Of a stretch of 30,664 nt of DNA, positions 6,729-25,115 are shown one piece after another; positions within the stretch are counted from its first letter, which is position 1, and each line of letters starts with the position of its first letter. The stretch is taken from positions 1 to 30,664 of IMG/VR virus record IMGVR_UViG_3300010885_018483; one strand, 5' to 3'. The stretch comes from a virus. Made by a program: the position numbers and the translations under genes. Below the pieces are notes generated by a model. It was not told the origin of the DNA. It did no database searches and was given only the letters and a program-made list of their open reading frames with translations.

Positions 6729-7337
6729 TTATACTCCTACCAAACCAGTTAAACTCTGGATTCGAACTGTATAGTCTATCTGTATCAATCGATTTAAACT
6801 TTTTTGTACAGGGTGAAATATAACATGAGTTAGCAATAAACTTTGCCCTGTTGAGCTATAACTTTTTAAACCTAGTTCGTCAAATACATAATTACTGTTA
6901 GAATTAGTTGTATTATCAAATGCTAATTGTCCAGGGCCGTCACCGTAGTCTAATAAACAAGTAACAAAGATATCAGTATAATTAGTACCAGTTACGTGAC
7001 GAGTTTCTATATAATTACGTGTTGGATCTGTGTTATTACTAGATCTGTCATCAACAACCTTGGAGAATGTTTGACTATATAATCCGGAATTTGATCCGGA
7101 ACTATTAGGAGTCAAATATGTAATAATTCCTGTCGGGTCAACTGCTGTTCCACCGTTGCCAAAAGCCATTTGAGATATGAATCCCTGTCCGCTGTTTGCT
7201 AGGCTCTGTGCCAATGCTATACTAATATTTTCATAGTGTATAGCATTACGTTTATTAACATAAACTTCGGCAGAATTTGGGTCAAATATTTTAATATGAC
7301 CTTCTATGTGTACGCCGGTTGTGTCTTTACTCTGCAT
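6729..7337 (-). CDS. Virion structural protein, 202 aa, between giant gene and fibres
   Basis: Not assigned to a T4 gene number. The N-terminus V-H-I-E-G-H-I-K-I-F-D is followed by V-N-K-R-N-A-I-H-Y-E-N at 27-37, a helical A-L-A-Q-S-L-A-N, and M-A-F-G-N-G-G-T at 57-64. I have seen this arrangement, from memory, in structural proteins of aquatic T4-like phages. The remainder appears beta-rich. Its place, after the giant wedge-type protein and three bases before the collar-domain fibre, suggests a baseplate adaptor that attaches fibres, comparable in position to T4 gp8-gp11. It begins 47 nt after the giant gene's stop, behind a late-promoter-like motif and a GAGAG ribosome site, so it probably heads a transcript with the fibres. 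Confidence 0.75.
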   Translation of the reverse strand: MQSKDTTGVHIEGHIKIFDPNSAEVYVNKRNAIHYENISIALAQSLANSGQGFISQMAFGNGGTAVDPTGIITYLTPNSSGSNSGLYSQTFSKVVDDRSSNNTDPTRNYIETRHVTGTNYTDIFVTCLLDYGDGPGQLAFDNTTNSNSNYVFDELGLKSYSSTGQSLLLTHVIFHPVQKSLNRLIQIDYTVRIQSLTGLVGV

Positions 7338-7384: not shown

Positions 7385-10300
7385 TTATTCGGATTTTGCT
7401 ATAGCTTTATAACTAACGCCCGGCACAGATTTCAAAAATTTAGCAATCTTACTGTTGTCATCCTGGATATTAACTAATCTATCCCAATCTGACCCTAAAC
7501 GCTTAACAACTGTAACAGTTGTGCCAAACGGAACTGGCGATGTTAGACGAACTTGCTTACTAACACCGTCTACTGCGAATTCAGCATCAAAGTGCTCATC
7601 GGCCGCAGGACTATCAGGCCCGTTTAAAACATTGTACAAGCTGTAAGGTTTTTTCTTTAGTCTTGTTCCGCCAGCAAATACCTCTATATCATTTGATTGG
7701 CTATATCCCGGAGGAATCGTTGTATCATATAGCTTCCAATATTTAGAGTTTGCTGTGCTATAATCAACCGTTGATAATCTATTTTTTACAGCAGGAACAG
7801 CATATATTGTATAATAGTATCTATTGTTATAGACCACTACATTTCTAACGTCATAGGAACTTGTTGCTTCAAAATTTCCAACAAAAGTGTATCCGTTTTC
7901 AGCGAACCACTGATAAATTGACATATTGTCAAGTGTCGGTGTAAAAGTCAACTCGACTGTATTGGTACCATCTGAGATTATTCGATCAGTTTTTGTAGTC
8001 TCAGTATAAGGTATAGTTTCACTGGACCCGATATCTTGTACATAAGAATTAATCGGATGTACTTTTGGTGTACCTGTTCCTAATGTACCGCGACGTATTT
8101 GTCCAAATACATTTCCAACTTTGGTAAAATACTCAATTCGTTCTCCGTGAATTTCAATAATCCCAGGTTTGTTTACAGCAGGGTTTGGTACATCAAAGTT
8201 ACTTGCGTTAACAACTGTGATTGTTGTATCTGTATTTTTTAATTCGACAGTCAATTGCGTTTGTTTGCTAGCACTCAATCGTTTAAAATGAGTTCTATTT
8301 AACATGTCTTTAAATTGCATGTAGGCAATTCCAGATGTTAATACATTATTACTAAAAGTTATCAGTGTAATTTCATCAGTTAGTGCCGGGGGTGTTGCTA
8401 AAGTAATACTTTGTCTATCAGTATTAACTTTAAAATCAACGCTAGGAGTTAGCAGTGATCCATTTTTTAATACCCAAACATAGTTATCATCGACAACTGT
8501 TCGATCTAGTTTTAATAGACCGCCAGCAAGTGATGTATATGTATAGTAATCTACAGTATCTGGGGTTAGTAGTAAATTAGAAGTTACGTTAACTGCTGTT
8601 CTTTGAATATCTAATATATCATGTTTGTAAAAAGTAGTAACTTCAATCATCTCTGATGAATAATTCTGAGAGAATTTAATTTGTGCAGGTGCATTTCCAA
8701 CTGATGGAATGTAAACATAACCTTGATTTTTTCTAATACTAACAATTAATTGTTTTCCAGAATACTTATTGTAGGTTGTCTTGTTTATTTTAATAGTAAT
8801 TCCGCTAAGGTCGACAATATAATCATTACTAGGCGTCAATAATATACCATCTGCTAGCACAACGATATCGCTTGACGCAACACTAAAAGGTACAAATTTT
8901 GCAGGATCAATTATGTAGTTTAATCTATTGCTTCCGATTTTAAAATAGCTATTATTTGGTCCGGATAATATTGTTTGATCCACACGGACAATCATACTAG
9001 ACTCGATCGGAAGAGTGTCGCCGGATATATTTTGAAGATCATATGTATCAGTACCAGTCGAAGTTATAATTTCAGATTTGGTAATTGAAAATGTTTGACT
9101 GCTACCTGTGACGATGATATAATTTATAATACTATCAGCAGGCGGTGGTGTAATAAATCGTATACCAATTTGATTTATATTTTCATAACTGATATCTGTT
9201 TTAAATAACTCAACTACCGCAGGACTACCATTTACATATACTAAAGATGTTGTCAAGTTAGTCCATGTTGCTTTAGTTATAAATTCGTTTGTTGTACCAT
9301 CACCTATAAAATAATCTAGATCTAATATACCGGTTCCACTAAATCCAACACTGAAAATTGAAACTAGTTCGCCGGCTGGTGGGGCTGTTACAAATCGCAC
9401 CTCGTTGGTTTCATATAATACCATATAGTCATCAATTTCAGTTTTGATTGACGACACTGATTGTAAAATATTATTAGATCTCTCACCTTTAGTAAATTTA
9501 ACTATTACTGCTTGGTGACTATTTGGAGTTTGAGATATTTTAAAAGTTCTCTGAATGCCGTCAGCTAGATAACTATCAACTTTGATTGCGGCACTACCAC
9601 TACTTGGTCTATCAAAGACCTTGATAGCCATAGTGTCAACAATTTGCCCGGGAACAACTTCCTCTGGTGCGCCACTCGATGTTGGTGTTACGAATCCGTC
9701 ACCGTCAACTATAATATCATCTGCAGATAGTCCGGTAGCCGAACTATATACTAGATTGCCGCCTTCTAGAGCAGTGTCATAATCTGTTTCTTGTGGTTTG
9801 ATCGCTCCGTCACTAGTACTCTTACGAATAATAATTTGATCACCTTCGCTAACCGTGATTCCCAATGAACTAATGTCAACGATACTTGTTGTGCCGTCAG
9901 CAATAATACTGCCATCATCAACACGTATTGCTCCAAAGTTACCGAGTCTTGTAGTTAATGAAGTTATGTTAATGTAACTTCCTGCAGGCACCGGAGAAGA
10001 TAAAGTTACAACACCGGTAATATTGATTACATAATCTGTTGGAATTACTAGTGTTCTAGTAAATGTAGCTGAAGCATTGGTAACATTATCAAACAATATT
10101 TGATCTAGCTGTACTCGTGTACTTGTTAATACTCTAAGTATTTTTGTATCGTAACTAATAGTGTTAGGTACAAGTGAACCATCCACATTAGAAATAATAG
10201 TAAGAAGATCGCCAGCTTGTAACAATGCAGTATCTTCAACTGTTAATATATCGATGCCGGATATATTTTTTGTAAAATATAGCACTCCAGATGGTTGATT

Positions 10301-13300
10301 GTTTGGAGCATCGCTTAAAATTACTGTTGAGTATGTTGACGGGGCTACCGGTGGCGTATAACTCATGACCGTTTGTCCGGATGCGAATCCTGTTCCAATA
10401 ACACTCATGCCTTGAACGATTACTCCGGTTACATTAGATATCTTTAAAGTAGTTCCATCGCTACCTGATTGCTGATAGGTAGCATGAGCATCAGTTATCG
10501 TTACCTCTGTGGAAATAGTTACCACTGGATTAATATCTTGGAGATTAAAATTAAAATTTACCTGTTGATCATCACCAGGGTAAGATTCAATAATACGTTT
10601 TGATTGATAGATGTTTAGTTCAGTACCAGCTGCCGGAGTGTATGGTAAGGTGTAAACATATTTTCCGGCTGGCACTATTTCAATGTAGTCATCAAATGTA
10701 GTATCAAAGGTATCCCATTTATCACTATAGTACGGAAGACTATCCCAACCCTTTGCTAGCTCAAAGCCTAGTCCGCTAACTATTACTCCTCCATAATCCA
10801 CACCTTCCATTAATTGCGATAGATCTTTACCTAGTTCACCTGCCGAAGGATTATAATAATATTGAATCCTGTCAGCGGCATTTAATAAATCCCAGTCTTT
10901 AATATAAGTTACAGTGATAACTGCATCTTTTTCTGGTGCTGTATCAAAAGTTAATGTACCGTAATGTCTAGTATATGTACTTGCGGCAGCTTTTGAAACT
11001 GTCAACGAGTATTCATCTCTAAGCACATCAGTACTGACACTTAATGTTTTAAGTTTAATAGACACCGTGGCTTTTCCAACACGGATATCAGGAGCCCAAG
11101 TTAAACTAAATTGTTTTTGTGATCCTGTTGCTATAAAAGTTTCAGTTTCTTGTAGTTGAGTAATAACATATTGACTTGTAGTTCGGTCAAATTTAATCTT
11201 AATGAGATTTGATCGAATTACACTATCGCCTATAATTGCAACCGCTCTTGCTGGGGCTCCTGTGGTATTTCCATCTATAATAACTGTCGGAGCTTCTAAG
11301 TATCCCGAACCTTTTGAAAGCAATGATATTCTTGTTAGCTTTCCATTGGAAATAAAAGCTCTAGCAACTGCGCCAGATCCAGAATTGCTGACAATTCGAA
11401 CAGCTGGTGGAGTTAAATATCCGCTGCCATTGTCTATCACAGCAATTTGTTTTACTTTAAATCCTGTATTATCTAACCAAAATTTCCAAGGGTATGTGTT
11501 AATAATCGAGTTATCAACTTGTATGTGTCCGTTAATAACTTGGCCGCTTACAGGTACAGGAGATCCGTTCTCTAGTACAGGCAATAGATCAAAATCAGTT
11601 ACCGATGTTTGGCTGTTTTCAGTATTACTATAAGAACTGATATATTCTCTGATTTTTGTTCTGTAAGGTTTTACCTCATCGATGTAACTTTCAAAATCTG
11701 CTAGATTGTCATTTTTATAAGTAACAGGTTGATCTAGATTCCCTATATTATGCTGTGCTTTGACAAAACTAGTTTTAAAAATCCAATCGATATATGTTTG
11801 CTCACTATATGCATATCGAACGCTATTAAAAAATAAGTTTAAATATTCTTGTTTTAAATTGTCAATCAATATGTCATTTTTTAACGTATTAAGTATCGTT
11901 CTTAGTTCTATTGAAGCGACGTTATCAAATGTTCCGCCATCATATAATTCCGAGTCATATCCATATATTGAGTTTGTATATTCATATAATGTTGAACTTA
12001 ATTGAATAGTCCCACGTTGTTTTCCAACTACTCTATAACTGGTTGTCCAATCAACGGTGATATTGTTAGAATATTTCTCTAGCAATACCCAACTTGAATC
12101 AACAGTGGTCCTAACTTTAACTGTTTGTCCTACTTTAGTATTAATAAGTCCCAACTCTGCAAATGTATCAACTGCATAGTCAGTTGCTGTAAATTGATTG
12201 TATCCGGTTGCATACCAATCTTCATAGCTCCAGAATTTTCTAGTGTCATATGATTGTCCGTTAACACGAGACCATAGTTCTGTAGTTGGTTCGTAGGAAT
12301 ATATACTCCACGATCCGCTTACTTGGCTATCAGTTTTTACAAGCACTGAATAGTTCCTAACAGTTAAGAAAGTATTATTATCATAGCCTTCACCTGCTGA
12401 TATAATTGTAACTCCATTAATTTGTCCGTTGGCATTTATTGAAGCTCGTAAAACTGCTCCTGTTCCCGAACCGCTAACTGTAATATACGGAGGAACTAGG
12501 TATCCACTTCCCTTTTCAACAATATTAACAGATGTAATTTTTCCGTCTGTAGGTGATGATATAGTTAGTACAGGTTTTCTAAAACTTCCAATATTAGCAA
12601 ATCTAAGTTCAGCATCAGTATCCACTGTAGTATCATACAAGCCAGTAATTGTACTTGGCAACATATCATAACTGTCTAATTTTGTTAAATTTCGTTGACT
12701 GCTAATTTGATTTTTAATTAGCACTTGATTTGTTTTTTCAATAAATTGTTTTAATGCTTCAAATCGATTAACAAACATACTCTGGCGTGGACGATTTTCA
12801 ATACCATATCGCAGTTTAGCAGGTAGGGCAGTATCAGGAACAACTCGTCCTTGAACATCCTTGCCGCAAAGACTATCGATCCATTTTTCTTCTATTCTAG
12901 TTGGTATTTCAGAATTAATATCATTTGATATTAGTTTCCACTGGCTATGTATATTTCCCTGACTCGATGTGTTATCTAAAAGCCAATATTCGATAGATAA
13001 AATAACATTGTTGTCTTCCAATAATGATTGACAGTTGACAACACTAAAGCTATTTGAGCTAGTTAATGCCAAATATTTGTAGCCTTCGCCTCGAGGATTA
13101 GCAATTATATTAGCTACATCAATAGCCGACATGCTTCTGTTTAAGGAACTTGGAATTGTTTTTTTATTTTTTACCCAATAATAGTAAATGTTTTTAAATG
13201 TTTTAGCAATGGCATCGTACTTCTTAACAACGCTGTACACATTATCATATAAAGCAGTTCCGCTTATGCCAAGTGATAGACCAGTTTCCGTATCGGCTGT

Positions 13301-16300
13301 AGTATTCCACTCTGTAGGCTTTAATTTAGATTCAACCCATTCGTATATGTCAATGCTTGCTCCGGGAAATAAAGTATTCCACGTACTATTTCTGTAGACA
13401 ACGTCTGTTGAATCGTGGCTTTCGATAAATTTTGCAGTACGTAAATCCCACCATAGCATGCCGACTTGAGATTTAGCCCATGCCATGCCATCATCAACTG
13501 TCACTGACGAATTCCCAATTGAATAGGTTGCAGGATCATAAAAAGTTTTATATTTTATTTCTTGTTCAGCAATCCCTGGAATTTGACCCTGGCTCGGATC
13601 AATCGCATCCAAGTACGAAACAATATTATTTGTTAATTTATTGTATAAGAACGCTTTTTTAATTCTTTTTAAATTAACTGATTTACCTTGAGAATATAGT
13701 TTTTTCCAACTAAAATGACCGGATGGTTTATTGCAGTCATATATTTTTCCGGACATTATTCCATTATCAAGCTGATAAGGCGATCCTACAACAACTCTAT
13801 TTGCACCAACAGCAAATCCTGAACTATATTCGGAATGTGAGTCTGCTTGATTAGTTTTTAAAGTTTCACTGAATACCCAGTTATCTGCATATCTGTCATA
13901 GATATCAATTCTACCTGTATTTGGTTTGCTAAACAAAAAGCTAGTTAGGTTATCGTCAAAAGTTGTAGTATTGTTATCAATAACGATTGTATCTCTCACT
14001 GATGAATTAGGACTGTAAACGACTAGTGTTTCGTAACCGTTCATAAAACTTAACTTCGTTCCAAAGTATTCGGCAATAGAAGGATCGTTATTAACTATTT
14101 CTTTTCGAGTCTCTAGATTAGCAAAATAATTTTCCTCGTCCCATGTACGAATTTCAACAAGTCCCTGATCAATTTTTTCACCGTCATATAATACAGAACT
14201 AATAGCAAGATAGGCAGCATCGGCACTTAACGCTACCGCAGTGCCAAACCCGGTGTATTCGTTTACAGTATTGAGAGTCTGTGTCAATGCATATAAGTTA
14301 CCGGATTTTCTATAGGTATAAACAACTCCAAGAGTCCCCGGAGCAGATACTGCTAATGTTGTACCATCTTGACTAATAGACATAGAATATCCAAACTTTG
14401 CACCGTCTGTTAACGTATTATGATCAAGATATCTCTGGAAGGAATTTTGTCCGGCATATTGCCAATTTGTTTCTGTAAATTCTAACACCCCAGCTGGTGT
14501 ACTATCTGGTGCGGCGCTGACATATAACGTTGTACTGTCTACTATTTGAGTAACATATTGTCCGCTAGTAAATCCAGTACCAACAATTTTCATATTTGCA
14601 TCAATGCCGGCAGTATTGGATACTTTTATTACAGTACCTGCACTACCAGTAGGATTGTATGCTGTACTGGCCATAACATTAGTTTGATAATTTAACTGAT
14701 ATACTCTACCAATAATATTGCCGCCTGTAGCATAGCCGGCTGCGGTTACAAACATTACATCATTGCCAAGAACAATATTTGAACCAAACAATTCGTCAGC
14801 TATCGGAATAGGACTTATTATTGAATCTACAAAACTATAAACATTACTTGCATCTTTCTTGTATAAAGAAATTGCGCCTTGATTCACTAAACTTGAATTA
14901 TAATCTGCGCTATCTGTATTAACAGCCGTGTACAAATCGCCAACTTGCGGATTAGTTGAAACATAACTGGCCAGTGGAGTTCCTGTAGCCAACCAAGTGC
15001 CGTCTGGAGACATAGCAATAACATCGCCTAAGTAGACTGCGTTATGTTCGCCTAGACCGTCAACGGTTAATTGAGGAGGTTCGATTGAAGACCTCTGTAT
15101 CCACGGTGCTACTAGTCCAGCTCTATCATATACTACAATAGTTCCATTGTTAACTGCTGTTGCCATTACGGTTCCAGCACTGTTAACAACAATTTGTTTT
15201 CCTCTGCCCTGTCCATAAACAGGCTCGGTGCTGATTAGTTCTTTATTAGTATAGACAGGATTATACTGCCAAGTTTCCCAGTTATAATCAGTTCCCGGGC
15301 CGCCGGTCCATAATAGTTCTCCGGCATTTATTTTTTTAGGACGTACACTGTCTGCATCGTTGATTGAGTTTACTTTTTGTGATTTAAACACAAATAATAA
15401 AACTTTTTGTTGCTCACTAAACGAGCCGGTGGGGGTTGTGCTCAATGATGCACTTAGCGTCATTTTATTCCCAACTACTGTTTTGATTTTATAAAATCCG
15501 TTAAATGCAGTAGTTTGATTAATTCCAACCCATTCTCCAGCTTTAAAATGAATATTTGTTTTGGCAGTTAGAGTTATTTCCTTATCATTGGCAACATAAG
15601 TTAAATTCGTAACTGCTAGATCAGAATTAGTATATCTATAAACATTCCAGCTGTTATTTTCAAAACCGCACCAGACATAATCTCCGTTTATAAAAGTTGT
15701 TACATCTTGAGATGCAATATTATCGATATGTAATAATGCCACTTTAACTTGATCAAGTCTAACATGCCCCGGAGTTCTCAAATAATATTTTTGATTTTCT
15801 ACTGTAGGCCATATGTCATTTTTATACCCAATAGGTTTTAAATAAACATCGTTGGGTGTTTGTCTAATAATAAAATCGTTTACTGCCGAGTCTACATAAT
15901 TAACTAGTTCAAAACCCTGAGGATTGTTTCTAAATAGTCCCTCCGGTAAAATAAATTCAACATTTTCAAACGCAGAGCTGGCGCCATATTGCCCCATTCG
16001 AACTGCCCACTCTTCGTAAAAATTTACGCTATCTTTTCCGTCGGCACTTAACACATCAAATAATTTATTAAGAACATTCTTTGTTCCTTTTTCAATTATC
16101 ATACCTTGATAAAATTTAAACTCACTGACATCATCTTGAATAATATTTTCAAGATATTGTCTTTTTTGGTATCCGACTAAGTGTTGGGCCATCTTTTGTT
16201 GACTAATATCAAAATTGTCACTATCAAGGCTATAAAAATCTGTAAACTGGCCTGCTTTATAATTCCAATTTGGCAATAACTGAGGCGTTGGCTTTTTATC

Positions 16301-19300
16301 TAATTTTACCCAGCTACTATTTTCAAATGTAGCAGTACCAGCTAACGATTTTTTTGAACTATAATAAAATTCTTTATACTTGACGATATCGCCAAGAAAG
16401 TAATCTTTCCATGCTTCCCAGTTTTGAATAGTTGCTTGATCAAAGATGAATCCCGGAGCATCAAACGAGCCAGTCCAATCACCGCTTACATATCCTGCTA
16501 TACGGATACGTTCTTGTCTATATCCACTTTCTACATTATAAATTGTGTCGTTGAACATGGTAGTATTATTTAAAATTACCACTTGCTCTTTTTGTACTAG
16601 ATAAAAACTAGCACTGTATATCCCATCATTACCGACTGGAATATAACTAACTGTATTATCATCTCTATAAGAATTTAAAAAATTTGGTAGGATCGGAGTC
16701 CCGTCTACTTTAAAAAATTCGTAACTATTAAAAGGATTTTTAATATCATCCACTACTGCTAATGGTAGCGCAAATGTTATTTTTGCGGCTGCTGGGCTTA
16801 GACTGATTACACTACTACCTAATGTACTCAATCCATCAAGTTTAACGAATGACTGGTTGTTAAAAATCAAACTGCCAGCTACATTAGTAGAGGCTCTATA
16901 GTAATCGCCGTTATATCGAATAATGTTTCCTGCCGCGACTGGAGTGTTAGGTTGCCAATCATGCCATTTGTCTTGGCCGGTACTCCAATTTTGAGTAGTC
17001 CAGAACATAAATTCTTTAGCACTTGTTTCCCAGTTTGCCACTTGCGACAGCGTTGTATTAAAGTCATCAAATATAAACCCTTGATCTTTTAACCATTCTC
17101 CATAACCTTGTAAGAAGTCTACAACTTCTTGTACTGTTCTAAATTTAGTACCGTAAGGTACAGTTATAACTTCGTCTCTATCCCACTCTGTTCTTAAATA
17201 AGCAGTTTGACCTCCTACTATAGGTAGCTCAGCTAGCAGTTCATAAAATTGAGAGCCGAATGTATCAGCTGTAGTGTGCAGTGCTTTTGATCTATAAAAT
17301 TTATTATTATACTCTACAATTTTTCCAGCGGCATATCGAGAATTAGGAGCCCAAGCACTAAATGCTTCAGAGATTCCACCAACATTGATTTCTAAACCAA
17401 TTCCCATTGTTGGATAATATTTAAAATAAGGTTGTGTTTTACTGTAACCTTTTACTTCATAGCCAACAACAGTACCTATTAAAGTTTTAGTAACAATTAC
17501 ACCGCTATATGTAATTTTTTTAATAGGACTAGAACTGTTCAATACAATATTATAATCTTCTTGCGGAACAAACACACTGCCTTGACTTAATGGTGTTTTG
17601 CTATCTAGCAACAGACTAAATTTTTCTTTGCTAGTAAATGCGCCAATACGATGTGTTAATCTTGCGCTAATATTTGTTAAATCATAAACATAAGAATCGT
17701 ATGACTTTAAGTTATCACTTAAGATATAATCAATTATATAATTAATAATCCCCGAAGTCTGTATATTACTACTGCTGGAATAGATGCTGGGAATCATGAT
17801 ATCTTTAGGAGAAACTCTTAAACTTGTTTCTTTATAAGTTAACTGTCCAGCAGGATTTCTTACTATCCGTGATCTATCTAAAAGCACTCCAAATGTTTGT
17901 GCTGGATGTAATAACATAAGTGTACGTAATACACTAAATGGATAATGACTACTTCTTCTCCAGGCTGATTCTACAGGGCTGATATCTCCAAAAACAAAAT
18001 CAGATTCTGTTGCTTGTGTTATAACTCCGGAGGCTAATCCAGAGAAGGCAGGACTTAAAATACGTCCTTGATCATCAACTGGTATGTAAGTATGCAAAAC
18101 AGGTCTAGCAAATTTTAAGTTTACTCTCACAGGAGTATTAGGTTCTCTGATAGTACCCGTTGCAAGATCTTCCCATAGAATTTTATTTTCACTAGTATAT
18201 GGTGCAGGACCGTAGACTTCTTGCCACCACTTAGGTTCAATTGTAAATCCTAGCATTTCCCAAGGACACAAATTAGGTCTGTCAGTGTCTAGCATCCAAC
18301 AGTATATTCCTTTCCAGTAGCCTGGCAAGCCTCGACCGTCTGGTGCAGAATTAAATCTATAATTAAAAGTAAACGGTTCAGTTCTATCGTAATTCAAAGG
18401 CTTAGTAAAATCTCGATCTACTAAACTTGTCCATTTATAAAAATCAGGAGCTAATACTTCATTAAATTCATCTAATGAATATTCAGTAGTTCTCGAATAC
18501 CCGGGAATAGTATCATAGATATCAAATACCGTTGGATCGTATTCAACTTTGATATTATTAAAAATTCGTTTTTCTAACTCTAGAATTAAATGGTCGCGGT
18601 AGTCGTCATATGCTAATACCTGACTACCGTCATGCCCCTGGATCATCAATCGGGGAGTGACAAGAGATGTATCTTCATAAATCATAGGTTCATATTTAGG
18701 CCAGATCCCTAACTTAGTAGGAGTCGCTGGTATGAAAGACCCATTAGTATTATCATATTCGTCAATTACTATAGTATCACCTGTTTCAATATGAGCAGTA
18801 ATGACTACAAATCCTTGGCTATTAAAAATATAATCTTTTTTGTATAACAGCTGATTACCGTTCAAATAAATTAATACCGATCGGGTGGATAGTTCATCCA
18901 TACTGAATATATTAACTAACGGATATGTTTTGATTCTATAATCAACAACCGTTAATTTGTTACTAGCTTTGGCAGAATAAGCTGCCATATCACTAAAATA
19001 ATACGGAGAAGTTTTCGGCTTATCTTGATTGATTTTTTGTAAAACAAGATTCACACCGGTCGCTGGATCTGTATCAATCCCGATAGCAGATGCTACTGCT
19101 ATGAAATTTTTCTTAAATTTATTGTAGTCTTCTTTTGAAGATTCAATTGCTTTAATTACATTATTACTTTCACTGGTAATATGATATAAACTTAAACTCA
19201 GGGGTCCGCTATGCTGTAAAAATTTTGTTCCGTACTGAGTGATATTACCTAAATCTCGAATGTTACTATAATCTGGATCTAGCATCGATGGCGGAATATT

Positions 19301-21634
19301 ATCGATAATGCTATTAACATGATCAATAGCTTCTCCTAATGTAAAGTCTATAAGGTTACCGTTCAACGGATTATTTTGTAAGTTAACTGGTATTTCATAG
19401 TAGCCGTTTTTATTAATGGGCTGTGATGAAAATGCCTTAATCGTCAATACATCGGTTAATTTAATATCAGCCGCTAACTTAACTTGCTTATATACCGGAG
19501 TATCAATTAACATCCAATAGCTAGAATCTAATCTAATACCGTTGATATACACTTTTACTATTAGGTCGGATAAATCTTTTATATTATCAAAAATATCAAT
19601 ATTAAAATTATTTGTTTTATTTGAATTTTTGTAAATTCTGATAGCAGGTTGGTACGTTGCAGCCTGGCATTTTTGCCAGCCGTTAAGATATATTAATCCG
19701 GCAGGAGTTGATTTTTTTAAATATCCAACATCTATTTTTTTGACTACTACGCTAGAATTATTTTTATATTCGAATTGATCAATTAGCAAATTAAAATTAA
19801 AAACAATATCTCCTATATTGTTAATATTTTTATAAGATAAAGGAAAACCTAAAGTGCTGTCTATACTATTAGTTCCAACTTTATAAGAAAATAAGGACGT
19901 TCCTGCAAAAGTCGATCCATCATAAACACTAGTATCACCGTAGCTGACACCATCATCATCTGCTATATCAAATAGTGGAGTTTGATTTAATTTTGTTTTT
20001 TGTTGGGCTAATTTCCAACTAGTTCCATTATACCAATAAGTACTTCCTTGATTTTTTAAACCTTGTTTAATAATACAACCTTGTCCTTCTACAGGAGATA
20101 ATTCAGGGGCAAGATGTATTTGTCGTTGTCCGTTTAAAGTTAAAAATTCAACTTTATAAATTTGATTTTTTACTAAAACATCAGTGTCTGCCGTAAATAA
20201 AATTCGTTGACCCTGTGCAATAGATATACCATCGATATTATACCCTAGGCGTCCTTCGATTGTGCTAAAGACATCTGTAGTATAGCTATCAATTAAATCA
20301 ATATCTTCAATTGCTACAGATCCAAAATTAAATAATCGTAAGTTTGCTTCAAATTCAATAATTGGTCTTATTGCCCTAGATGCTTGATTTAAATCAACTT
20401 CAGTTCCATTAAGTTTAGCTGTTGTCGTGATAACATCTTTATGAAACCATCGGTTGTAACGGCTCCAGGGGTTTCTATCTTTACTTGCTCTATTGATAAT
20501 AATATATTCGGGGGTGCCTGCAAAGCTAGTTGCATCACTGAACGGTAATGTATCAAACGGGCTGTTATCAAATAATATTGTTTCTGATGTTGTATAAGTG
20601 CTTAATAATTCTAAGATTGATGTAGATACTAGCTCAATCGCAGTGCCAACACCTTCAACATAATATTCGCCTTTGGCGTAAGAACTAGGCGTTACATTTC
20701 CGATAAATCGAACTTTCATTCCGTTAGTAAGACTAGTTCCATTAGGTAGTGTATAAGATTTTTTTCCTAATATGTCAGCATCAACATTTATAAAAGTATT
20801 ATCGTCAATAGATAATATTTCAAAGACTCCGCCGAGATCGGCATTAGAAGTGCTAGTATAAAATAATACATCAGGACAAGAATAAGGAACTGTAAATGTA
20901 ATTGTGCCTTTTTCTAAAGAAGTAACAATTTTCCCCGATTCATCTCTGTATACTAGTTCGCTGTTTAGATATGGATGAGATGGGCCACTAGATCTAGCTG
21001 TCTTAATCATAAACGGATTTGACGGGCTTGACACATTAAATCTATATGTTTGACCTCTGTATAATTTAATTACAGGATCTCTGACTAAACCAGGAGGCGT
21101 AAAAATATATTGATCATCGCCGCCAACGGATTCAATAGTAACAGTATATTCACTAGTAATTGCCAATTGCTGACCTAGAATTTTAACTGCGTCAGGGCCA
21201 TAAGGTAACCAATAGTAGTTTTGAAAATTAACAAATTTATCCCAGTCAATATGCGGATCCCAAGAATAAAATTCTTGTTTGTTTATTCTAGCATGATTAG
21301 TAGTGTTACCTCCAAAAACTCCTATCTGGTTAATATAGTCAGCATAGTCTTTAAAGAAAGTAGTATTGCCTAAATCATCATTTACAACCATACCGGGCTC
21401 TAGTTGATAATGTTGACGTGCGGCTGTGGGCGCAGTAATAAAAATGTCACTGCCGGTAGTTGCTTTTGCATTTTCCCTACCAATAAACCCATTAACTTTT
21501 TTAACAGTTCCCGGACGGATCAGTTGTTCAACTGTTGCTTGTAAAAACTTTTTATTAGCATCAGTTTGATAAAATTTAGGTAGAAAATCTGAAGCCTTTG
21601 CTTTGCCAGAGTTTGGATTTACACTATCAACCAT
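7385..21634 (-). CDS. Giant multidomain baseplate/fibre structural protein, 4749 aa
   Basis: A single open frame of 14.25 kb. It starts inside the end of the gp6-like gene (8-nt overlap, GGAG seven bases before the ATG) and occupies the position of T4 genes 7-11; T4 gp7 is about 1030 aa. Visible segments: N-terminal core (F-L-P-K-F-Y-Q-T at 17-24); cupredoxin-like domain 186-277; aromatic core ~1000-1250 with G-H-D-G-S near 999, W-W-Q-E-V-Y-G from 1136 and W1225-R-R-S-S; three CBM5/12-like modules at 1428-1782; beta-propeller-like 2143-2635; GSGY blocks 3042-3092 and 3403-3470; V-K-P-Y-R-T-K-I-R-E near 3319; G-K-D-L-S-Q-L-M near 3601; then fibre-like beta repeats to a fourth W/Y module at 4587-4637. 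I infer a wedge protein fused to a long fibre or scaffold. No protease, lysozyme or intein motif was found. Structural role is secure; exact equivalence is not. Confidence 0.8.
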   Translation of the reverse strand: MVDSVNPNSGKAKASDFLPKFYQTDANKKFLQATVEQLIRPGTVKKVNGFIGRENAKATTGSDIFITAPTAARQHYQLEPGMVVNDDLGNTTFFKDYADYINQIGVFGGNTTNHARINKQEFYSWDPHIDWDKFVNFQNYYWLPYGPDAVKILGQQLAITSEYTVTIESVGGDDQYIFTPPGLVRDPVIKLYRGQTYRFNVSSPSNPFMIKTARSSGPSHPYLNSELVYRDESGKIVTSLEKGTITFTVPYSCPDVLFYTSTSNADLGGVFEILSIDDNTFINVDADILGKKSYTLPNGTSLTNGMKVRFIGNVTPSSYAKGEYYVEGVGTAIELVSTSILELLSTYTTSETILFDNSPFDTLPFSDATSFAGTPEYIIINRASKDRNPWSRYNRWFHKDVITTTAKLNGTEVDLNQASRAIRPIIEFEANLRLFNFGSVAIEDIDLIDSYTTDVFSTIEGRLGYNIDGISIAQGQRILFTADTDVLVKNQIYKVEFLTLNGQRQIHLAPELSPVEGQGCIIKQGLKNQGSTYWYNGTSWKLAQQKTKLNQTPLFDIADDDGVSYGDTSVYDGSTFAGTSLFSYKVGTNSIDSTLGFPLSYKNINNIGDIVFNFNLLIDQFEYKNNSSVVVKKIDVGYLKKSTPAGLIYLNGWQKCQAATYQPAIRIYKNSNKTNNFNIDIFDNIKDLSDLIVKVYINGIRLDSSYWMLIDTPVYKQVKLAADIKLTDVLTIKAFSSQPINKNGYYEIPVNLQNNPLNGNLIDFTLGEAIDHVNSIIDNIPPSMLDPDYSNIRDLGNITQYGTKFLQHSGPLSLSLYHITSESNNVIKAIESSKEDYNKFKKNFIAVASAIGIDTDPATGVNLVLQKINQDKPKTSPYYFSDMAAYSAKASNKLTVVDYRIKTYPLVNIFSMDELSTRSVLIYLNGNQLLYKKDYIFNSQGFVVITAHIETGDTIVIDEYDNTNGSFIPATPTKLGIWPKYEPMIYEDTSLVTPRLMIQGHDGSQVLAYDDYRDHLILELEKRIFNNIKVEYDPTVFDIYDTIPGYSRTTEYSLDEFNEVLAPDFYKWTSLVDRDFTKPLNYDRTEPFTFNYRFNSAPDGRGLPGYWKGIYCWMLDTDRPNLCPWEMLGFTIEPKWWQEVYGPAPYTSENKILWEDLATGTIREPNTPVRVNLKFARPVLHTYIPVDDQGRILSPAFSGLASGVITQATESDFVFGDISPVESAWRRSSHYPFSVLRTLMLLHPAQTFGVLLDRSRIVRNPAGQLTYKETSLRVSPKDIMIPSIYSSSSNIQTSGIINYIIDYILSDNLKSYDSYVYDLTNISARLTHRIGAFTSKEKFSLLLDSKTPLSQGSVFVPQEDYNIVLNSSSPIKKITYSGVIVTKTLIGTVVGYEVKGYSKTQPYFKYYPTMGIGLEINVGGISEAFSAWAPNSRYAAGKIVEYNNKFYRSKALHTTADTFGSQFYELLAELPIVGGQTAYLRTEWDRDEVITVPYGTKFRTVQEVVDFLQGYGEWLKDQGFIFDDFNTTLSQVANWETSAKEFMFWTTQNWSTGQDKWHDWQPNTPVAAGNIIRYNGDYYRASTNVAGSLIFNNQSFVKLDGLSTLGSSVISLSPAAAKITFALPLAVVDDIKNPFNSYEFFKVDGTPILPNFLNSYRDDNTVSYIPVGNDGIYSASFYLVQKEQVVILNNTTMFNDTIYNVESGYRQERIRIAGYVSGDWTGSFDAPGFIFDQATIQNWEAWKDYFLGDIVKYKEFYYSSKKSLAGTATFENSSWVKLDKKPTPQLLPNWNYKAGQFTDFYSLDSDNFDISQQKMAQHLVGYQKRQYLENIIQDDVSEFKFYQGMIIEKGTKNVLNKLFDVLSADGKDSVNFYEEWAVRMGQYGASSAFENVEFILPEGLFRNNPQGFELVNYVDSAVNDFIIRQTPNDVYLKPIGYKNDIWPTVENQKYYLRTPGHVRLDQVKVALLHIDNIASQDVTTFINGDYVWCGFENNSWNVYRYTNSDLAVTNLTYVANDKEITLTAKTNIHFKAGEWVGINQTTAFNGFYKIKTVVGNKMTLSASLSTTPTGSFSEQQKVLLFVFKSQKVNSINDADSVRPKKINAGELLWTGGPGTDYNWETWQYNPVYTNKELISTEPVYGQGRGKQIVVNSAGTVMATAVNNGTIVVYDRAGLVAPWIQRSSIEPPQLTVDGLGEHNAVYLGDVIAMSPDGTWLATGTPLASYVSTNPQVGDLYTAVNTDSADYNSSLVNQGAISLYKKDASNVYSFVDSIISPIPIADELFGSNIVLGNDVMFVTAAGYATGGNIIGRVYQLNYQTNVMASTAYNPTGSAGTVIKVSNTAGIDANMKIVGTGFTSGQYVTQIVDSTTLYVSAAPDSTPAGVLEFTETNWQYAGQNSFQRYLDHNTLTDGAKFGYSMSISQDGTTLAVSAPGTLGVVYTYRKSGNLYALTQTLNTVNEYTGFGTAVALSADAAYLAISSVLYDGEKIDQGLVEIRTWDEENYFANLETRKEIVNNDPSIAEYFGTKLSFMNGYETLVVYSPNSSVRDTIVIDNNTTTFDDNLTSFLFSKPNTGRIDIYDRYADNWVFSETLKTNQADSHSEYSSGFAVGANRVVVGSPYQLDNGIMSGKIYDCNKPSGHFSWKKLYSQGKSVNLKRIKKAFLYNKLTNNIVSYLDAIDPSQGQIPGIAEQEIKYKTFYDPATYSIGNSSVTVDDGMAWAKSQVGMLWWDLRTAKFIESHDSTDVVYRNSTWNTLFPGASIDIYEWVESKLKPTEWNTTADTETGLSLGISGTALYDNVYSVVKKYDAIAKTFKNIYYYWVKNKKTIPSSLNRSMSAIDVANIIANPRGEGYKYLALTSSNSFSVVNCQSLLEDNNVILSIEYWLLDNTSSQGNIHSQWKLISNDINSEIPTRIEEKWIDSLCGKDVQGRVVPDTALPAKLRYGIENRPRQSMFVNRFEALKQFIEKTNQVLIKNQISSQRNLTKLDSYDMLPSTITGLYDTTVDTDAELRFANIGSFRKPVLTISSPTDGKITSVNIVEKGSGYLVPPYITVSGSGTGAVLRASINANGQINGVTIISAGEGYDNNTFLTVRNYSVLVKTDSQVSGSWSIYSYEPTTELWSRVNGQSYDTRKFWSYEDWYATGYNQFTATDYAVDTFAELGLINTKVGQTVKVRTTVDSSWVLLEKYSNNITVDWTTSYRVVGKQRGTIQLSSTLYEYTNSIYGYDSELYDGGTFDNVASIELRTILNTLKNDILIDNLKQEYLNLFFNSVRYAYSEQTYIDWIFKTSFVKAQHNIGNLDQPVTYKNDNLADFESYIDEVKPYRTKIREYISSYSNTENSQTSVTDFDLLPVLENGSPVPVSGQVINGHIQVDNSIINTYPWKFWLDNTGFKVKQIAVIDNGSGYLTPPAVRIVSNSGSGAVARAFISNGKLTRISLLSKGSGYLEAPTVIIDGNTTGAPARAVAIIGDSVIRSNLIKIKFDRTTSQYVITQLQETETFIATGSQKQFSLTWAPDIRVGKATVSIKLKTLSVSTDVLRDEYSLTVSKAAASTYTRHYGTLTFDTAPEKDAVITVTYIKDWDLLNAADRIQYYYNPSAGELGKDLSQLMEGVDYGGVIVSGLGFELAKGWDSLPYYSDKWDTFDTTFDDYIEIVPAGKYVYTLPYTPAAGTELNIYQSKRIIESYPGDDQQVNFNFNLQDINPVVTISTEVTITDAHATYQQSGSDGTTLKISNVTGVIVQGMSVIGTGFASGQTVMSYTPPVAPSTYSTVILSDAPNNQPSGVLYFTKNISGIDILTVEDTALLQAGDLLTIISNVDGSLVPNTISYDTKILRVLTSTRVQLDQILFDNVTNASATFTRTLVIPTDYVINITGVVTLSSPVPAGSYINITSLTTRLGNFGAIRVDDGSIIADGTTSIVDISSLGITVSEGDQIIIRKSTSDGAIKPQETDYDTALEGGNLVYSSATGLSADDIIVDGDGFVTPTSSGAPEEVVPGQIVDTMAIKVFDRPSSGSAAIKVDSYLADGIQRTFKISQTPNSHQAVIVKFTKGERSNNILQSVSSIKTEIDDYMVLYETNEVRFVTAPPAGELVSIFSVGFSGTGILDLDYFIGDGTTNEFITKATWTNLTTSLVYVNGSPAVVELFKTDISYENINQIGIRFITPPPADSIINYIIVTGSSQTFSITKSEIITSTGTDTYDLQNISGDTLPIESSMIVRVDQTILSGPNNSYFKIGSNRLNYIIDPAKFVPFSVASSDIVVLADGILLTPSNDYIVDLSGITIKINKTTYNKYSGKQLIVSIRKNQGYVYIPSVGNAPAQIKFSQNYSSEMIEVTTFYKHDILDIQRTAVNVTSNLLLTPDTVDYYTYTSLAGGLLKLDRTVVDDNYVWVLKNGSLLTPSVDFKVNTDRQSITLATPPALTDEITLITFSNNVLTSGIAYMQFKDMLNRTHFKRLSASKQTQLTVELKNTDTTITVVNASNFDVPNPAVNKPGIIEIHGERIEYFTKVGNVFGQIRRGTLGTGTPKVHPINSYVQDIGSSETIPYTETTKTDRIISDGTNTVELTFTPTLDNMSIYQWFAENGYTFVGNFEATSSYDVRNVVVYNNRYYYTIYAVPAVKNRLSTVDYSTANSKYWKLYDTTIPPGYSQSNDIEVFAGGTRLKKKPYSLYNVLNGPDSPAADEHFDAEFAVDGVSKQVRLTSPVPFGTTVTVVKRLGSDWDRLVNIQDDNSKIAKFLKSVPGVSYKAIAKSE
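7724..7876 (-). other. Fourth W/Y module of the giant protein
   Basis: Residues 4587-4637 read N-F-E-A-T-S-S-Y-D-V-R-N-V-V-V-Y-N-N-R-Y-, then Y-Y, and end Y-W-K-L-Y-D. It matches the pattern of the three modules near 1428-1782, except that the first aromatic is F and the usual G is R. It lies about 110 residues from the C-terminus, far from the others. Confidence 0.4.
10265..10465 (-). repeat. Copy B of the G-T-G-F-x-S-G-Q module
   Basis: Residues 3724-3790 of the giant protein align with residues 2330-2390: G-S-x-G-T, K-[VI]-S-N, then G-T-G-F-[TA]-S-G-Q, and a closing P-[AS]-G-V-L-x-F-T. Copy B has about six extra residues in the middle. This is an internal protein duplication rather than a close DNA repeat. 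Confidence 0.65.
11225..11428 (-). repeat. Second GSGY repeat block of the giant protein
   Basis: Residues 3403-3470 contain two units of the form G-S-G-Y-L-x-x-P-x-V-x-I followed by G-[SA]-x-A-R-A. The unit recurs across phage tail proteins and at residues 3042-3092 here. It probably folds as small repeated beta-hairpins; the role is unknown. Confidence 0.6.
12359..12511 (-). repeat. First GSGY repeat block of the giant protein
   Basis: Residues 3042-3092 start G-S-G-Y-L-V-P-P-Y-I-T-V, continue G-S-G-T-G-A-V-L-R-A, and have a second, weaker unit beginning G-E-G-Y-D-N. It matches the block at 3403-3470 with about 310 residues between. Confidence 0.6.
13730..15208 (-). other. Probable beta-propeller (FG-GAP-like) region of the giant protein
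   Basis: Residues 2143-2635 hold seven blade-like motifs: near 2143 (K-Q-I-V-V-N-S-A-G-T-V), 2203 (G-D-V-I-A-M-S-P-D-G), 2283 (F-G-S-N-I-V-L-G-N-D), 2414 (F-G-Y-S-M-S-I-S-Q-D-G), 2463 (F-G-T-A-V-A-L-S-A-D), 2524 (F-G-T-K-L-S-F-M-N-G) and 2607 (F-A-V-G-A-N-R-V-V-V). Most are followed by a hydrophobic strand and then an I/V-x-x-Y/R strand. Seven is a common propeller blade number. Spacing is 49-83 residues, except 131 between the third and fourth, where an extra module (2330-2390) is inserted. Propellers usually mediate binding. Confidence 0.5.
14465..14647 (-). repeat. Copy A of the G-T-G-F-x-S-G-Q module, inserted in the propeller
   Basis: Residues 2330-2390, G-S-A-G-T-V-I-K-V-S-N through G-T-G-F-T-S-G-Q to A-G-V-L-E-F-T, pair with copy B at 3724-3790. 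This copy interrupts the propeller between its third and fourth motifs. Confidence 0.65.
16288..16420 (-). other. CBM5/12-like module 3 of the giant protein
   Basis: Residues 1739-1782: W1739-E-A-W1742-K-D-Y-F-L-G-D-I-V-K-Y-K-E-F-Y-Y, with a closing S-S-W-V-K-L-D. It shares the G-[DN]-I-[VI]-x-Y core and the [FW]-V-K-L-D end with module 2. Confidence 0.5.
16829..16957 (-). other. CBM5/12-like module 2 of the giant protein
   Basis: Residues 1560-1602: W1560-Q-P-N-T-P-V-A-A-G-N-I-I-R-Y-N-G-D-Y-Y then R-A-S, with a closing S-F-V-K-L-D. It matches module 1 in W-x-P-N and A-A-G-[KN]-I. Confidence 0.5.
17222..17353 (-). other. CBM5/12-like module 1 of the giant protein
   Basis: Residues 1428-1471: W1428-A-P-N-S-R-Y-A-A-G-K-I-V-E-Y-N-N-K-F-Y then R-S-K-A. 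The W-x5-Y-x2-G-x2-V-x-Y-x4-Y-x2 layout is that of the small carbohydrate-binding family 5/12 (chitin-binding type 3) fold. Confidence 0.5.
20804..21079 (-). other. Degenerate cupredoxin-like domain of the giant protein
   Basis: Residues 186-277 follow a pattern I associate with cupredoxin-like domains in phage structural proteins: L-Y-R-G-Q-T-Y-R-F-N, then N-P-F-M-I-K-T where H-P-F is usual, then G-T-I-T-F-T-V-P, and F-Y-x9-G-G-V-F-E-I. The expected copper ligands appear replaced: N206 for the first His, S261 for Cys, N264 for the second His and L267 for Met. It would be a structural rather than metal-binding version. Confidence 0.45.
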
Positions 21635-24600
21635 TAGTTGCTCCGTATGGTGAACTTGTTACGTTTTGTTGGGTAGAATTAACTACACTAGAATTAGTGT
21701 TTGTAATTGCTTTAATCATGCTAGGTGTTATTGATGTAATAATTTCAATGTCATCTACTGTGGCTCCGTTGATAAACAACTGATCGCTAGCTGATTTGAT
21801 TTCAAATAAACTACCAAAGTTTAAGCCGCTTTGACGTGGCACTATTACAAAATTAGCAATGTAAGGTGTAGCTTGGTTCATAACATAGGTTGATAATTCA
21901 GTAAAGTAAAATGTATCTCCAAAGTCCCAATTATCTAAATTAAAAAATTGATTAATTGCTGTAATTACTTTTGCTTTAATATCGTTGTCAGAAATCACCT
22001 GGCTTGGATTTTTAATTACTTTAAAACTTGCCTGAAGATTATCTTCAGCAATCGTGCCAAACAAAATCTTATAATTTACTGGATGATAAACTACTTCGTC
22101 ACTTATTGACTTAATTAAACTCAGGCTAGGAGATATTATGTCATATAACTCGGCACTGCTAGGCGGTAACGGTTTAGTTATTGGAGCTCCACTAATCCAT
22201 TGTCTAAATAAAGTATCATACCCCTTGGTTAACATAAAAACATCTATTATATTGGTTGCGCCGGGGTCAATTCTCGAATCGTAGTCAGCACTATGAGTGT
22301 ACTGGAATTTAATTTTATCTCGGCCTACAAATACTTTATAGTCAAGGCTAGCAACTAGTGGTTGATTGGCGGCTGTTAATTTTTTAACTACTCCGCTTTT
22401 TACAAAATAAAAATATTGTGGAAATGTATATTGATTTCTATCACCAACTAACGATTCGTCAGCTAGTATTTTTACTACAGAATTATTATAATTTTCTACA
22501 TATCTATAATCATCTTGACCCTGACTGATCGTATATTTTTCTTGTAAAATATACCGTGTCCAGTTTGTAGCGATCGGATCAACTATATTTAAAAATAGTT
22601 CTGGATTATCAACCACACCATTATCGTCAGAATCAGCAAATGTAACTACTATCTTTTTGTTGTCAATATATCCATCTTGACCTGCATATTCCGAAACAAC
22701 TTCCCAAGGATAGTCTACAGTAAAGGGAAATCCTGCAACGCTGGCTGGATTAGAATTGATGTTTAAAACATTAATAATATCTTTGATTACTGAGTCGTTA
22801 CGGCTGTCATAGATTTTACGTGTGCTATCAAAAAAGAATCTAACCTGTGTATCACTTTCAAAAACATATCGCTGTTCTCTACTAGTTACTGTATAGTATT
22901 CGTTATTAGTAGTAAACAATAACAACCAGCTGGCATCTTGTTGTTTGCTGGTAACATCGCCCTGTTTTGCTATACTAAAGTTAGAAACCAAGTCTAAATT
23001 TGATTCAAATATAATTTTCCATACTTGTGTAGTAGCATCGTAACGAAGTCCAAACGGTTTATTTGAATCGATTAAATCAATCATAGTTGTTATTGTCGCT
23101 GAGTCAATAACCGTTCTCCACTTCGGAACAATCTGCGTGATAATAGGTTTACTTGCTGAAGTTGACGGTATCGGACGATTTAAACTTACTGGCCCGAACC
23201 CGGTAGATAATAACCCGGTACCTGCGGCAGTGCCGTCATCTGATACTGACACTACTTCTGCCCAGATAGTTTTTATATATCCGGCAGTAGTTGTTGCAGA
23301 AGTTTGAACAAGTGTGTTTTCTCTATTAGTGTCAAAGTAATAACCGGTCGGTGCTGTAAATTGTACCAACGCTCCTGCTTTTAAATATTTTAAATCTGTG
23401 CTAGTATATGATCCGACTTTGTATATCGTTCCGTCATTTACATCACCTATATAACCAGACGATGCATTAGCATCTGTTGTTACGTTATTCCATACAATGT
23501 TCAAACTGGCTGTGATAAAATTAATAAATTTAGAATAATAAAAATTTCGCAGATTTGCTCTTTTAAGAATATCAAAAATGTCGTTGTAGATAACAACTTC
23601 AATATCAGTTTTGCTTTGATAACTGAATCTATATTGACTTGTATATTCCTCTGTGTACAGTACTCCGTCATTGGCAAATAAATTTGTTGAGCTGTATTTG
23701 CCTGTGGGATCTGCTAGGTCAAAATAACGACTGATGCCGGAACTTGTTCTATTAACTGCTTTTACTTTTGCAACTTGAGTGCTTACTGATAAAGGACTAA
23801 TATTATAATCTTCACCTGTAATCATTCGATTTTGTGTATAATAAGTTTGCGGAGCATTGGCCTTAATACTATCATTTGATTCTGTAGTAACAGCATTATT
23901 AACTGTATAACTTAACGATAATGTAATTGTTAAAGTTTGTAATTGATTCTGTGCAGAATAATACGGTACGTCTATCGATACGTTTCTAATATCTCGCGGG
24001 TTGATTGCATACTGCAAGCCATTGCTTACTCTATAATAAGTTCTAAATGTACCTAAAGGTAACTCTCCAAATACACCGTCACTAAATTGCAAACTGAATC
24101 TGTCGCCGGCTCGTGTTATCACACTGTAAATATTTCTAATATTTTTTTGAATACTATTATAAATTATGTTATTGCCTTCAAAATTACTAACAGGTGTCCA
24201 TAAATCAGTTTCAGCATTATTGCCGTCTAATCGATATAGCCATATATCTGAATTGTTAACTCCTGGGCTATCAATGTCAACTGATTGGTTACTACTTGGC
24301 TGTGCTACTGTAAATAATCCGGTGTTGAGTGTACCTTGTACAAAGTTTAAAAAGAAGCCACTTGATGTGCTGCCTAATCCTTTACCATCATCTCTATATA
24401 TACAAGCAAGATGATTACCAATACGAGGAGCTTCCTCGTAGATATAATTTTGTTCACTGAAAGTAGTACTGGTAATTTCAAATGCCATTGTTCTACCGTC
24501 AACAGTTTTGTTGAATTCGTATACAGGCACATTTGTATTTGCTCCCTGGATTCGATATTGTTCTGTTGGTATTCCGTATATGCTGGCTTTGCTTGCAGGG

Positions 24601-25115
24601 TTTCCAAATTGTTGTGTTGCAGGAAACGATGCGTTCATTATTTTAATAAACTGATCGTACCAATTTGCATTTGCTGAATCGTTCCAGTTGATTGTTTGCC
24701 CTGCTAAGTTTCTTCCGTTGCTGTCAATTACATTTTCTGTAGTTGCTACCGAAGCAAACTTTAATAAACCTCTAGAAGCAATATTTCTTTTGGCATTGTA
24801 ACTAATTAAACGTGCTAGACGTAGAACACTTTCACGGCGTTCTGCTAGTTCTAAAAAGTTTTCACGAGCATTTAAGTCCACACGGAAAGCTATGCTTTGG
24901 CCCAGAAATGCAATAAGATCAATTAGGGCAAGGTATTCGCTAGATTCAATATAATCGTTAAAATCTTCAGGATAGTTAGTACGGATATAATCAATCATCG
25001 TGCGACGTAGATTCTCAAAGTCGTAACTTTGGAAGTCTGCGTTACGGAAACTTTGATATATCTTTTTCCAGTCTTGTGCGACTAATAGTCTATTTTGTCT
25101 AGTTGTTACACTCAT
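21627..25115 (-). CDS. 6: Baseplate wedge protein gp6-like (baseplate J superfamily), 1162 aa
   Basis: Forms the ring of inter-wedge contacts in the T4-type baseplate that triggers sheath contraction. The N-terminus has the typical gp6 helical region: W-K-K-I-Y-Q-S-F, D-Y-I-R-T-N-Y-P-E-D-F-N-D-Y, and R-V-D-L-N-A-R-E-N-F-L-E-L-A-E-R-R-E-S from about 78. Baseplate_J features follow: F-S-D-G-V-F-G-E-L-P-L-G near 343, and R-M-I-T-G-E-D-Y-N near 430. The C-terminal part (about 1008-1132) has F-x-V-I-K-N, N-W-D-F-G-D-T-F-Y and P-R-Q-S-G. It is nearly twice the length of T4 gp6 (660 aa); the extra sequence lies mainly between ~500 and 1000 and includes an EF-hand-like loop at D828-E839. It starts 47 nt after gp25, behind a late-promoter-like motif and TAGGAT. 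Confidence 0.92.
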   Translation of the reverse strand: MSVTTRQNRLLVAQDWKKIYQSFRNADFQSYDFENLRRTMIDYIRTNYPEDFNDYIESSEYLALIDLIAFLGQSIAFRVDLNARENFLELAERRESVLRLARLISYNAKRNIASRGLLKFASVATTENVIDSNGRNLAGQTINWNDSANANWYDQFIKIMNASFPATQQFGNPASKASIYGIPTEQYRIQGANTNVPVYEFNKTVDGRTMAFEITSTTFSEQNYIYEEAPRIGNHLACIYRDDGKGLGSTSSGFFLNFVQGTLNTGLFTVAQPSSNQSVDIDSPGVNNSDIWLYRLDGNNAETDLWTPVSNFEGNNIIYNSIQKNIRNIYSVITRAGDRFSLQFSDGVFGELPLGTFRTYYRVSNGLQYAINPRDIRNVSIDVPYYSAQNQLQTLTITLSLSYTVNNAVTTESNDSIKANAPQTYYTQNRMITGEDYNISPLSVSTQVAKVKAVNRTSSGISRYFDLADPTGKYSSTNLFANDGVLYTEEYTSQYRFSYQSKTDIEVVIYNDIFDILKRANLRNFYYSKFINFITASLNIVWNNVTTDANASSGYIGDVNDGTIYKVGSYTSTDLKYLKAGALVQFTAPTGYYFDTNRENTLVQTSATTTAGYIKTIWAEVVSVSDDGTAAGTGLLSTGFGPVSLNRPIPSTSASKPIITQIVPKWRTVIDSATITTMIDLIDSNKPFGLRYDATTQVWKIIFESNLDLVSNFSIAKQGDVTSKQQDASWLLLFTTNNEYYTVTSREQRYVFESDTQVRFFFDSTRKIYDSRNDSVIKDIINVLNINSNPASVAGFPFTVDYPWEVVSEYAGQDGYIDNKKIVVTFADSDDNGVVDNPELFLNIVDPIATNWTRYILQEKYTISQGQDDYRYVENYNNSVVKILADESLVGDRNQYTFPQYFYFVKSGVVKKLTAANQPLVASLDYKVFVGRDKIKFQYTHSADYDSRIDPGATNIIDVFMLTKGYDTLFRQWISGAPITKPLPPSSAELYDIISPSLSLIKSISDEVVYHPVNYKILFGTIAEDNLQASFKVIKNPSQVISDNDIKAKVITAINQFFNLDNWDFGDTFYFTELSTYVMNQATPYIANFVIVPRQSGLNFGSLFEIKSASDQLFINGATVDDIEIITSITPSMIKAITNTNSSVVNSTQQNVTSSPYGATNG
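22599..22634 (-). other. EF-hand-like calcium-binding loop in the gp6-like protein
   Basis: Residues 828-839 read D-S-D-D-N-G-V-V-D-N-P-E. This fits the twelve-residue EF-hand/dockerin loop: acidic or Asn at 1, 3, 5 and 9, Gly at 6, hydrophobic at 8 and Glu at 12. It is a single loop, in the extra region absent from the shorter T4 gp6. Calcium binding is inferred. Confidence 0.5.

Follow-up and report, generated by a model that had tools for sequence, protein, structure and literature searches.

A probable gp7-type baseplate wedge protein of 4749 residues in a RaK2-like jumbo myovirus record

Results

A giant gene lies next to the gp6-like gene of a baseplate cluster

The window analysed here is an entire virus record of 30,664 bases, and the gene content described is that seen within those bases. 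On its minus strand, an ORF of the phrog_12050 family is followed by a gp53-like gene, a gene for a 754-aa protein (phrog_11190), the gp5-like, gp25-like and gp6-like genes, the giant gene, and genes for proteins of 202, 728, 680, 500 and 295 aa (Table 1). The first 8 bases of the giant ORF lie within the end of the gp6-like ORF, and the gene occupies the slot of T4 gene 7, which separates gp6 from the genes of the baseplate periphery. The same post-gp6 slot is used in dozens of relatives and in the phages RaK2, PA5oct, Atu_ph07 and Phosso. By gene order, an ORF of 198-204 aa is found in relatives at the point of the cluster where the window has its 202-aa gene.

Several features of the neighbouring genes were observed alongside. 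The three fibre-like proteins have in common a related N-terminal anchor, which suggests three paralogous attachments in series, and the C-terminal part of the 500-aa protein gave a weak Peptidase_G2-type autoproteolytic match (21.1 bits, cut-off 25). The gp5-like hub protein (25616-27409, minus strand) has OB-type and trimer-type matches in Pfam; the name of its PHROG includes tail lysozyme, and no lysozyme match to it was found in Pfam. The first ORF (29983-30664, minus strand) seems to have lost its N-terminal end at the edge of the contig: the frame remains open up to that edge, the match to the phrog_12050 profile begins at position 304, and the ORF found here in relatives measures about 300-339 aa.

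Table 1. Features of the giant gene and its neighbours in the window
Feature	Residues	Nucleotides	Strand	Description
gp25-like gene		25163..25606	minus	147 aa, PF04965 E 4.7e-11
gp6-like baseplate wedge gene		21627..25115	minus	1162 aa, directly upstream of giant gene, phrog_10646 E 1.1e-298
Giant gene, probable baseplate wedge		7385..21634	minus	4749 aa, ATG start, single frame, phrog_10938 family
Cupredoxin-like beta domain	149-340	20615..21190	minus	model pLDDT about 65-87; Foldseek
Conserved N-terminal arm	376-1425	17360..20509	minus	55-72% identity in clade
CBM5/12-like module 1	1427-1480	17195..17356	minus	Pfam PF02839 26.3 bits, self-similar to other copies
CBM5/12-like module 2	1546-1612	16799..16999	minus	self-comparison
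CBM5/12-like module 3	1735-1790	16265..16432	minus	self-comparison; weak Pfam score 8.4 bits
Proposed gp7-type core	1790-1905	15920..16267	minus	invariant KG(T/S) motif at residue 1849, kept across family
Beta-propeller, integrin-alpha-like	about 1950-2655	13670..15787	minus	variable insert; model pLDDT mostly 80-93
Conserved post-propeller region	2656-3370	11525..13669	minus	about 50-67% clade identity
GxGY module	3029-3100	12335..12550	minus	self-similar to 3390-3465
GxGY module	3390-3465	11240..11467	minus	self-similar to 3029-3100
C-terminal part	3676-4749	7388..10609	minus	variable at 3676-3900 and 4576-4650
202-aa gene after giant gene		6729..7337	minus	phrog_11259 E 8e-69
Fibre-like proteins, 728 / 680 / 500 aa		4539-6725, 2497-4539, 951-2453	minus	related N-terminal anchor, phrog_15511 and phrog_14394

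The frame is intact and under purifying selection

The giant protein is 81-90% identical in amino-acid sequence to those of four close relatives, and the codon differences from these relatives are far more often synonymous than non-synonymous in nearly every 500-codon block. In one of them (L025), 1522 synonymous and 853 non-synonymous differences were counted over 4549 codons, with third positions changed most. This excess of synonymous differences in nearly all blocks shows that the frame is a real gene under purifying selection. An intact giant frame was found again in dozens of independent contigs; the sole break seen was in contig L035 (10001-24891), where the gene consists of 2694 + 2169 codons separated by one frame change in the variable propeller region, which fits either an assembly error or a decayed gene. 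The 4749-codon frame is a genuine, intact and selected gene; the initial annotation had described it as one uninterrupted frame after the gp6-like gene. The comparison with relatives for split versions of the gene, which it had proposed, yielded the frame break of L035 and no tidy gene split.

The giant protein belongs to a known family and has an ordinary size for its clade

The giant protein matched the PHROG family phrog_10938 ("virion structural protein") with 1082.5 bits, in four stretches over its conserved regions, and by this match it is a member of a known family of RaK2-like jumbo phages. Relatives found by tblastn were jumbo phages of Pseudomonas, Klebsiella, Salmonella, Escherichia, Erwinia, Agrobacterium, Sinorhizobium and Salicola. 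RaK2 ORF070w (3326 aa), Atu_ph07 gp180 (4449 aa) and Phosso XYS97451.1 (4555 aa) adjoin gp6; PA5oct gp355 (3857 aa) follows gp6 and was seen in virions by ESI-MS/MS; and for SCTP-2 gp140 (3807 aa), the best gp6 match lies elsewhere in the genome. In phage CBB, the gp6-adjoining gene CBB_236 gave 21 virion peptides by mass spectrometry (PMC5259590).

In IMG/VR, at least 389 stretches encode relatives of the giant protein. The 44 complete single-frame relatives measure 4520-5693 aa (median 4942), 34 of them being longer than the window protein and 10 shorter. Because most complete relatives are longer, the size is ordinary for the clade, in which the window gene is one of the shorter ones; the novelty in size that had been claimed for it is not supported. 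Among the predicted viral structures of an existing library is a homologue with 66% identity across most of the first 1200 residues. This type of giant wedge gene is already known, and the window adds one member to phrog_10938.

Constant regions are interspersed with variable inserts

Conservation was mapped in a 45-sequence alignment that included distant relatives. Residues about 1-150, 376-1425, about 1801-1950 and about 2626-3370 are conserved even in the distant sequences, with variable modules between them. The N-terminal arm is largely kept in RaK2, PA5oct, Atu_ph07 and SCTP-2, with a gap near residues 900-975 in some distant relatives, and the post-propeller region is mostly retained in distant relatives. 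For the cupredoxin-like domain ahead of the arm, the best PDB matches in Foldseek were multicopper oxidases (laccase-type cupredoxins; E 1e-4, low TM-score). Most of its residues 151-225 are absent from RaK2, PA5oct and SCTP-2 in the alignment, and the usual copper-ligand pattern, looked for by eye, was not apparent. The N-terminal fold search also returned phage homologues that were already catalogued. A T4-like baseplate chain (9f4b_FA) obtained in the same search was discounted at E 0.004 and a TM-score of 0.10 or less.

The sugar-binding-like modules and the propeller that the initial annotation had noticed were both recovered. Three CBM5/12-like modules were found, the first barely above the cut-off of PF02839 (CBM_5_12; 26.2 bits), with its best stretch at residues 1427-1455, and the other two by self-comparison; module 3 is an insert of the window clade that corresponds to an alignment gap in RaK2, PA5oct and SCTP-2. 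The best solved match of the modelled propeller was the integrin alpha head (Foldseek E 4e-10), and this insert is mostly absent from RaK2 in the alignment. The GxGY modules matched modules of the giant protein of cyanophage ACG-2014g with hhalign probabilities of up to 98%. A phrog_460 label, "head closure Hc2" (residues 3388-3463), falls on the second GxGY module and was not taken to indicate a neck function. A further module at residues 3716-3789 is repeated at 2322-2388, as seen by self-comparison. The C-terminal third, previously called fibre-like, is variable and contains many beta-type modules, but nothing in it matched a known fibre. A sequence search of the giant protein against solved structures gave nothing meaningful.

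A family-wide KG(T/S) motif suggests a relationship to T4 gp7

The KG(T/S) motif of the proposed core lies within FYxG(M/F)IxxKG(T/S), which is kept in RaK2, PA5oct, Atu_ph07 and SCTP-2; in the Phosso version, FH replaces FY. The counterpart in T4 gp7 is DFYSTKGIEASYKFLFK, at about residues 733-749. The cyanophage giant matched the T4 gp7 core motif with an hhalign probability of 93-96%. In the KG register, the window family can be aligned with T4 gp7 as well as with the cyanophage giant. When the KG segment was compared with full T4 gp7, 29 of 200 shuffles reached its score, which is thus weak and not out of the ordinary; against the merged core of T4 gp7 and the cyanophage protein (T4 732-760), 2 of 400 did so, for a segment picked after the motif had been seen. 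Because choosing the segment for its motif inflates the apparent significance, we take this result as a lead rather than as proof. Over its whole length, the protein did not match T4 gp7 significantly in profile comparison. None of the gp7 Pfam domains (helical, V, VI) was found in the window protein, the KG region had no Pfam gp7 or tail-protein-I match, and domain V was absent from the relatives in which it was sought. The structure model of residues 1790-1905 is of low confidence. On sequence grounds, direct homology of the giant protein to T4 gp7 is suggestive.

The cyanophage protein itself, ACG-2014g gp084 (L086 4078-25137, 7019 aa), has a motif resembling that of T4 gp7 at about residues 690-716, though gp7 has been described as absent from cyanophages and pelagimyophages, with VrlC apparently substituting for it (PMC7029224). 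Judged from its motif, the cyanophage protein in the gp7 slot may be an enlarged and diverged gp7 rather than a substitute.

Absorption of gp8-gp11 into the giant chain is not supported

In 27 of the 45 relatives with sequence past the giant gene, the next ORF opens with a gp9/gp10-type N-terminal anchor of the pattern M..Q.IN.GT.VNDGTGD.LR.AG.KIN.NF.ELY, which scores as the gp9/gp10 N-terminal domain in both PHROGs and Pfam. Each anchor protein has an ORF of its own, with lengths from 117 to 1148 aa, some of the ORFs being cut by contig ends. Because such proteins follow the giant gene in most relatives, absorption of gp9/gp10 was rejected. The window, like 18 relatives, is without an anchor protein directly after the giant gene. 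In cyanophage ACG-2014g, gp9 and gp8 have genes of their own after that of the 7019-aa protein in the post-gp6 slot.

No gp8 or gp11 family member was detected in any of five complete genomes (PA5oct, Atu_ph07, RaK2, Phosso and SCTP-2) or in long contigs (153-400 kb) from closer relatives, in a search that detected both families in T4 as positive control. Since they are undetected in whole RaK2-like genomes, it is possible that gp8 and gp11 were lost or replaced in these phages. The point of the initial annotation that no separate gp8-gp11 genes are visible is upheld for gp8 and gp11 in complete genomes of relatives and fails for the anchor genes of gp9/gp10 type. The comparison of chain pieces with T4 profiles that it had proposed was made with 600-residue pieces against gp6 to gp12 and gave no match, and gp8, gp9/10 and gp11 domains had no Pfam match in the giant protein. 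Structure models covered residues 1-1200 and 1660-2860, and the fold matches listed for residues 1-1200 included none of gp8-gp11 type. The earlier suggestion that one chain absorbed several baseplate functions therefore finds no signal in the parts tested.

Discussion

Taken together, the product of the giant gene is probably the baseplate wedge protein of gp7 type in a RaK2-like jumbo myovirus, with long arms that carry accessory modules. This reading is based on the post-gp6 slot, the phrog_10938 match, the mass spectrometry of PA5oct and CBB virions, the family-wide KG motif and the separate gp9/gp10-anchor genes. T4 gp7 binds two copies of gp6 in each wedge. By analogy, the core around KG(T/S) at residue 1849 would bind two gp6 copies in the T4 fashion, with about one copy of the giant protein expected per wedge and six per virion. 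The arms on either side of the core would form the periphery of the baseplate, and the surface-exposed modules (CBM-like, propeller and GxGY) may dock fibres or contact glycans of the host surface.

A true fusion, in which gp7 and gp8, gp9, gp10 and/or gp11 are domains of one chain, would account for a chain far longer than T4 gp7 and for the failure to detect gp8 and gp11 in complete RaK2-like genomes and in the large contigs of closer relatives. We consider it very unlikely, given that most relatives encode the gp9/gp10 anchors directly after the giant gene, that the cyanophage with an even larger protein retains separate gp8 and gp9, and that no gp8-gp11 match came from the profile comparisons or stood among the fold matches listed for residues 1-1200. 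That the frame joins several genes by an assembly artefact is next to impossible: the window does come from a metagenomic collection of virus records, but dozens of independent contigs show a single frame of 4520-5693 aa at this position, which contradicts the frame-disrupting error that the initial annotation had named as a risk to its reading. Isolate genomes also have frames of 3326-4555 aa, and the prevalence of synonymous changes in nearly every block argues against an artefact as well.

Alternatively, a peripheral scaffold that does not descend from gp7 could have taken the post-gp6 position, much as the literature views VrlC. Direct similarity to T4 gp7 is weak or absent, and VrlC has been published as an apparent substitute of gp7; however, the cyanophage giant contains the T4 gp7 core motif and the window family falls in the same KG register, and we regard an unrelated scaffold as unlikely. 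An extension of the gp7-type reading is that the enlarged arms took over the peripheral role of gp8 and gp11 by unrelated folds, the CBM-like modules and the integrin-like propeller being host-facing inserts; this is a speculative proposal to which we give little credence.

The analysis provides a map of constant and plug-in parts in a giant wedge protein found on hundreds of metagenomic phage contigs, and it points to residues 1790-1905 as the core that probably binds gp6. It also illustrates that absent T4 neighbour genes need not imply fusion.

Among known systems, the members of phrog_10938 have the same conserved regions, the KG(T/S) motif and a very large single gene, and in RaK2, PA5oct, Atu_ph07 and Phosso this gene adjoins gp6 as it does in the window; presence in virions has been shown within the family for PA5oct and CBB only. 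Compared with the named relatives, the window protein is 190-1420 aa longer; it has three CBM5/12-like modules, and its propeller insert is larger. T4 gp7 (1032 aa) likewise follows gp6, starts within the last bases of gp6 and has a KG motif with a hydrophobic, helix-like stretch after it, but it is about 4.6 times shorter, and the window protein has no domain V match and no significant whole-length similarity to it. ACG-2014g gp084 resembles the window protein in being encoded by a very large single post-gp6 gene and in its GxGY modules and KGT motif. In contrast to the window gene, it is followed by the separate gp9 and gp8 genes, and the two proteins have no whole-length similarity, with weak C-terminal matches only (58-75% probability) beyond the GxGY modules. 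VrlC, to which gp084 may correspond, is what the literature calls the gp7 substitute of cyanophages and pelagimyophages.
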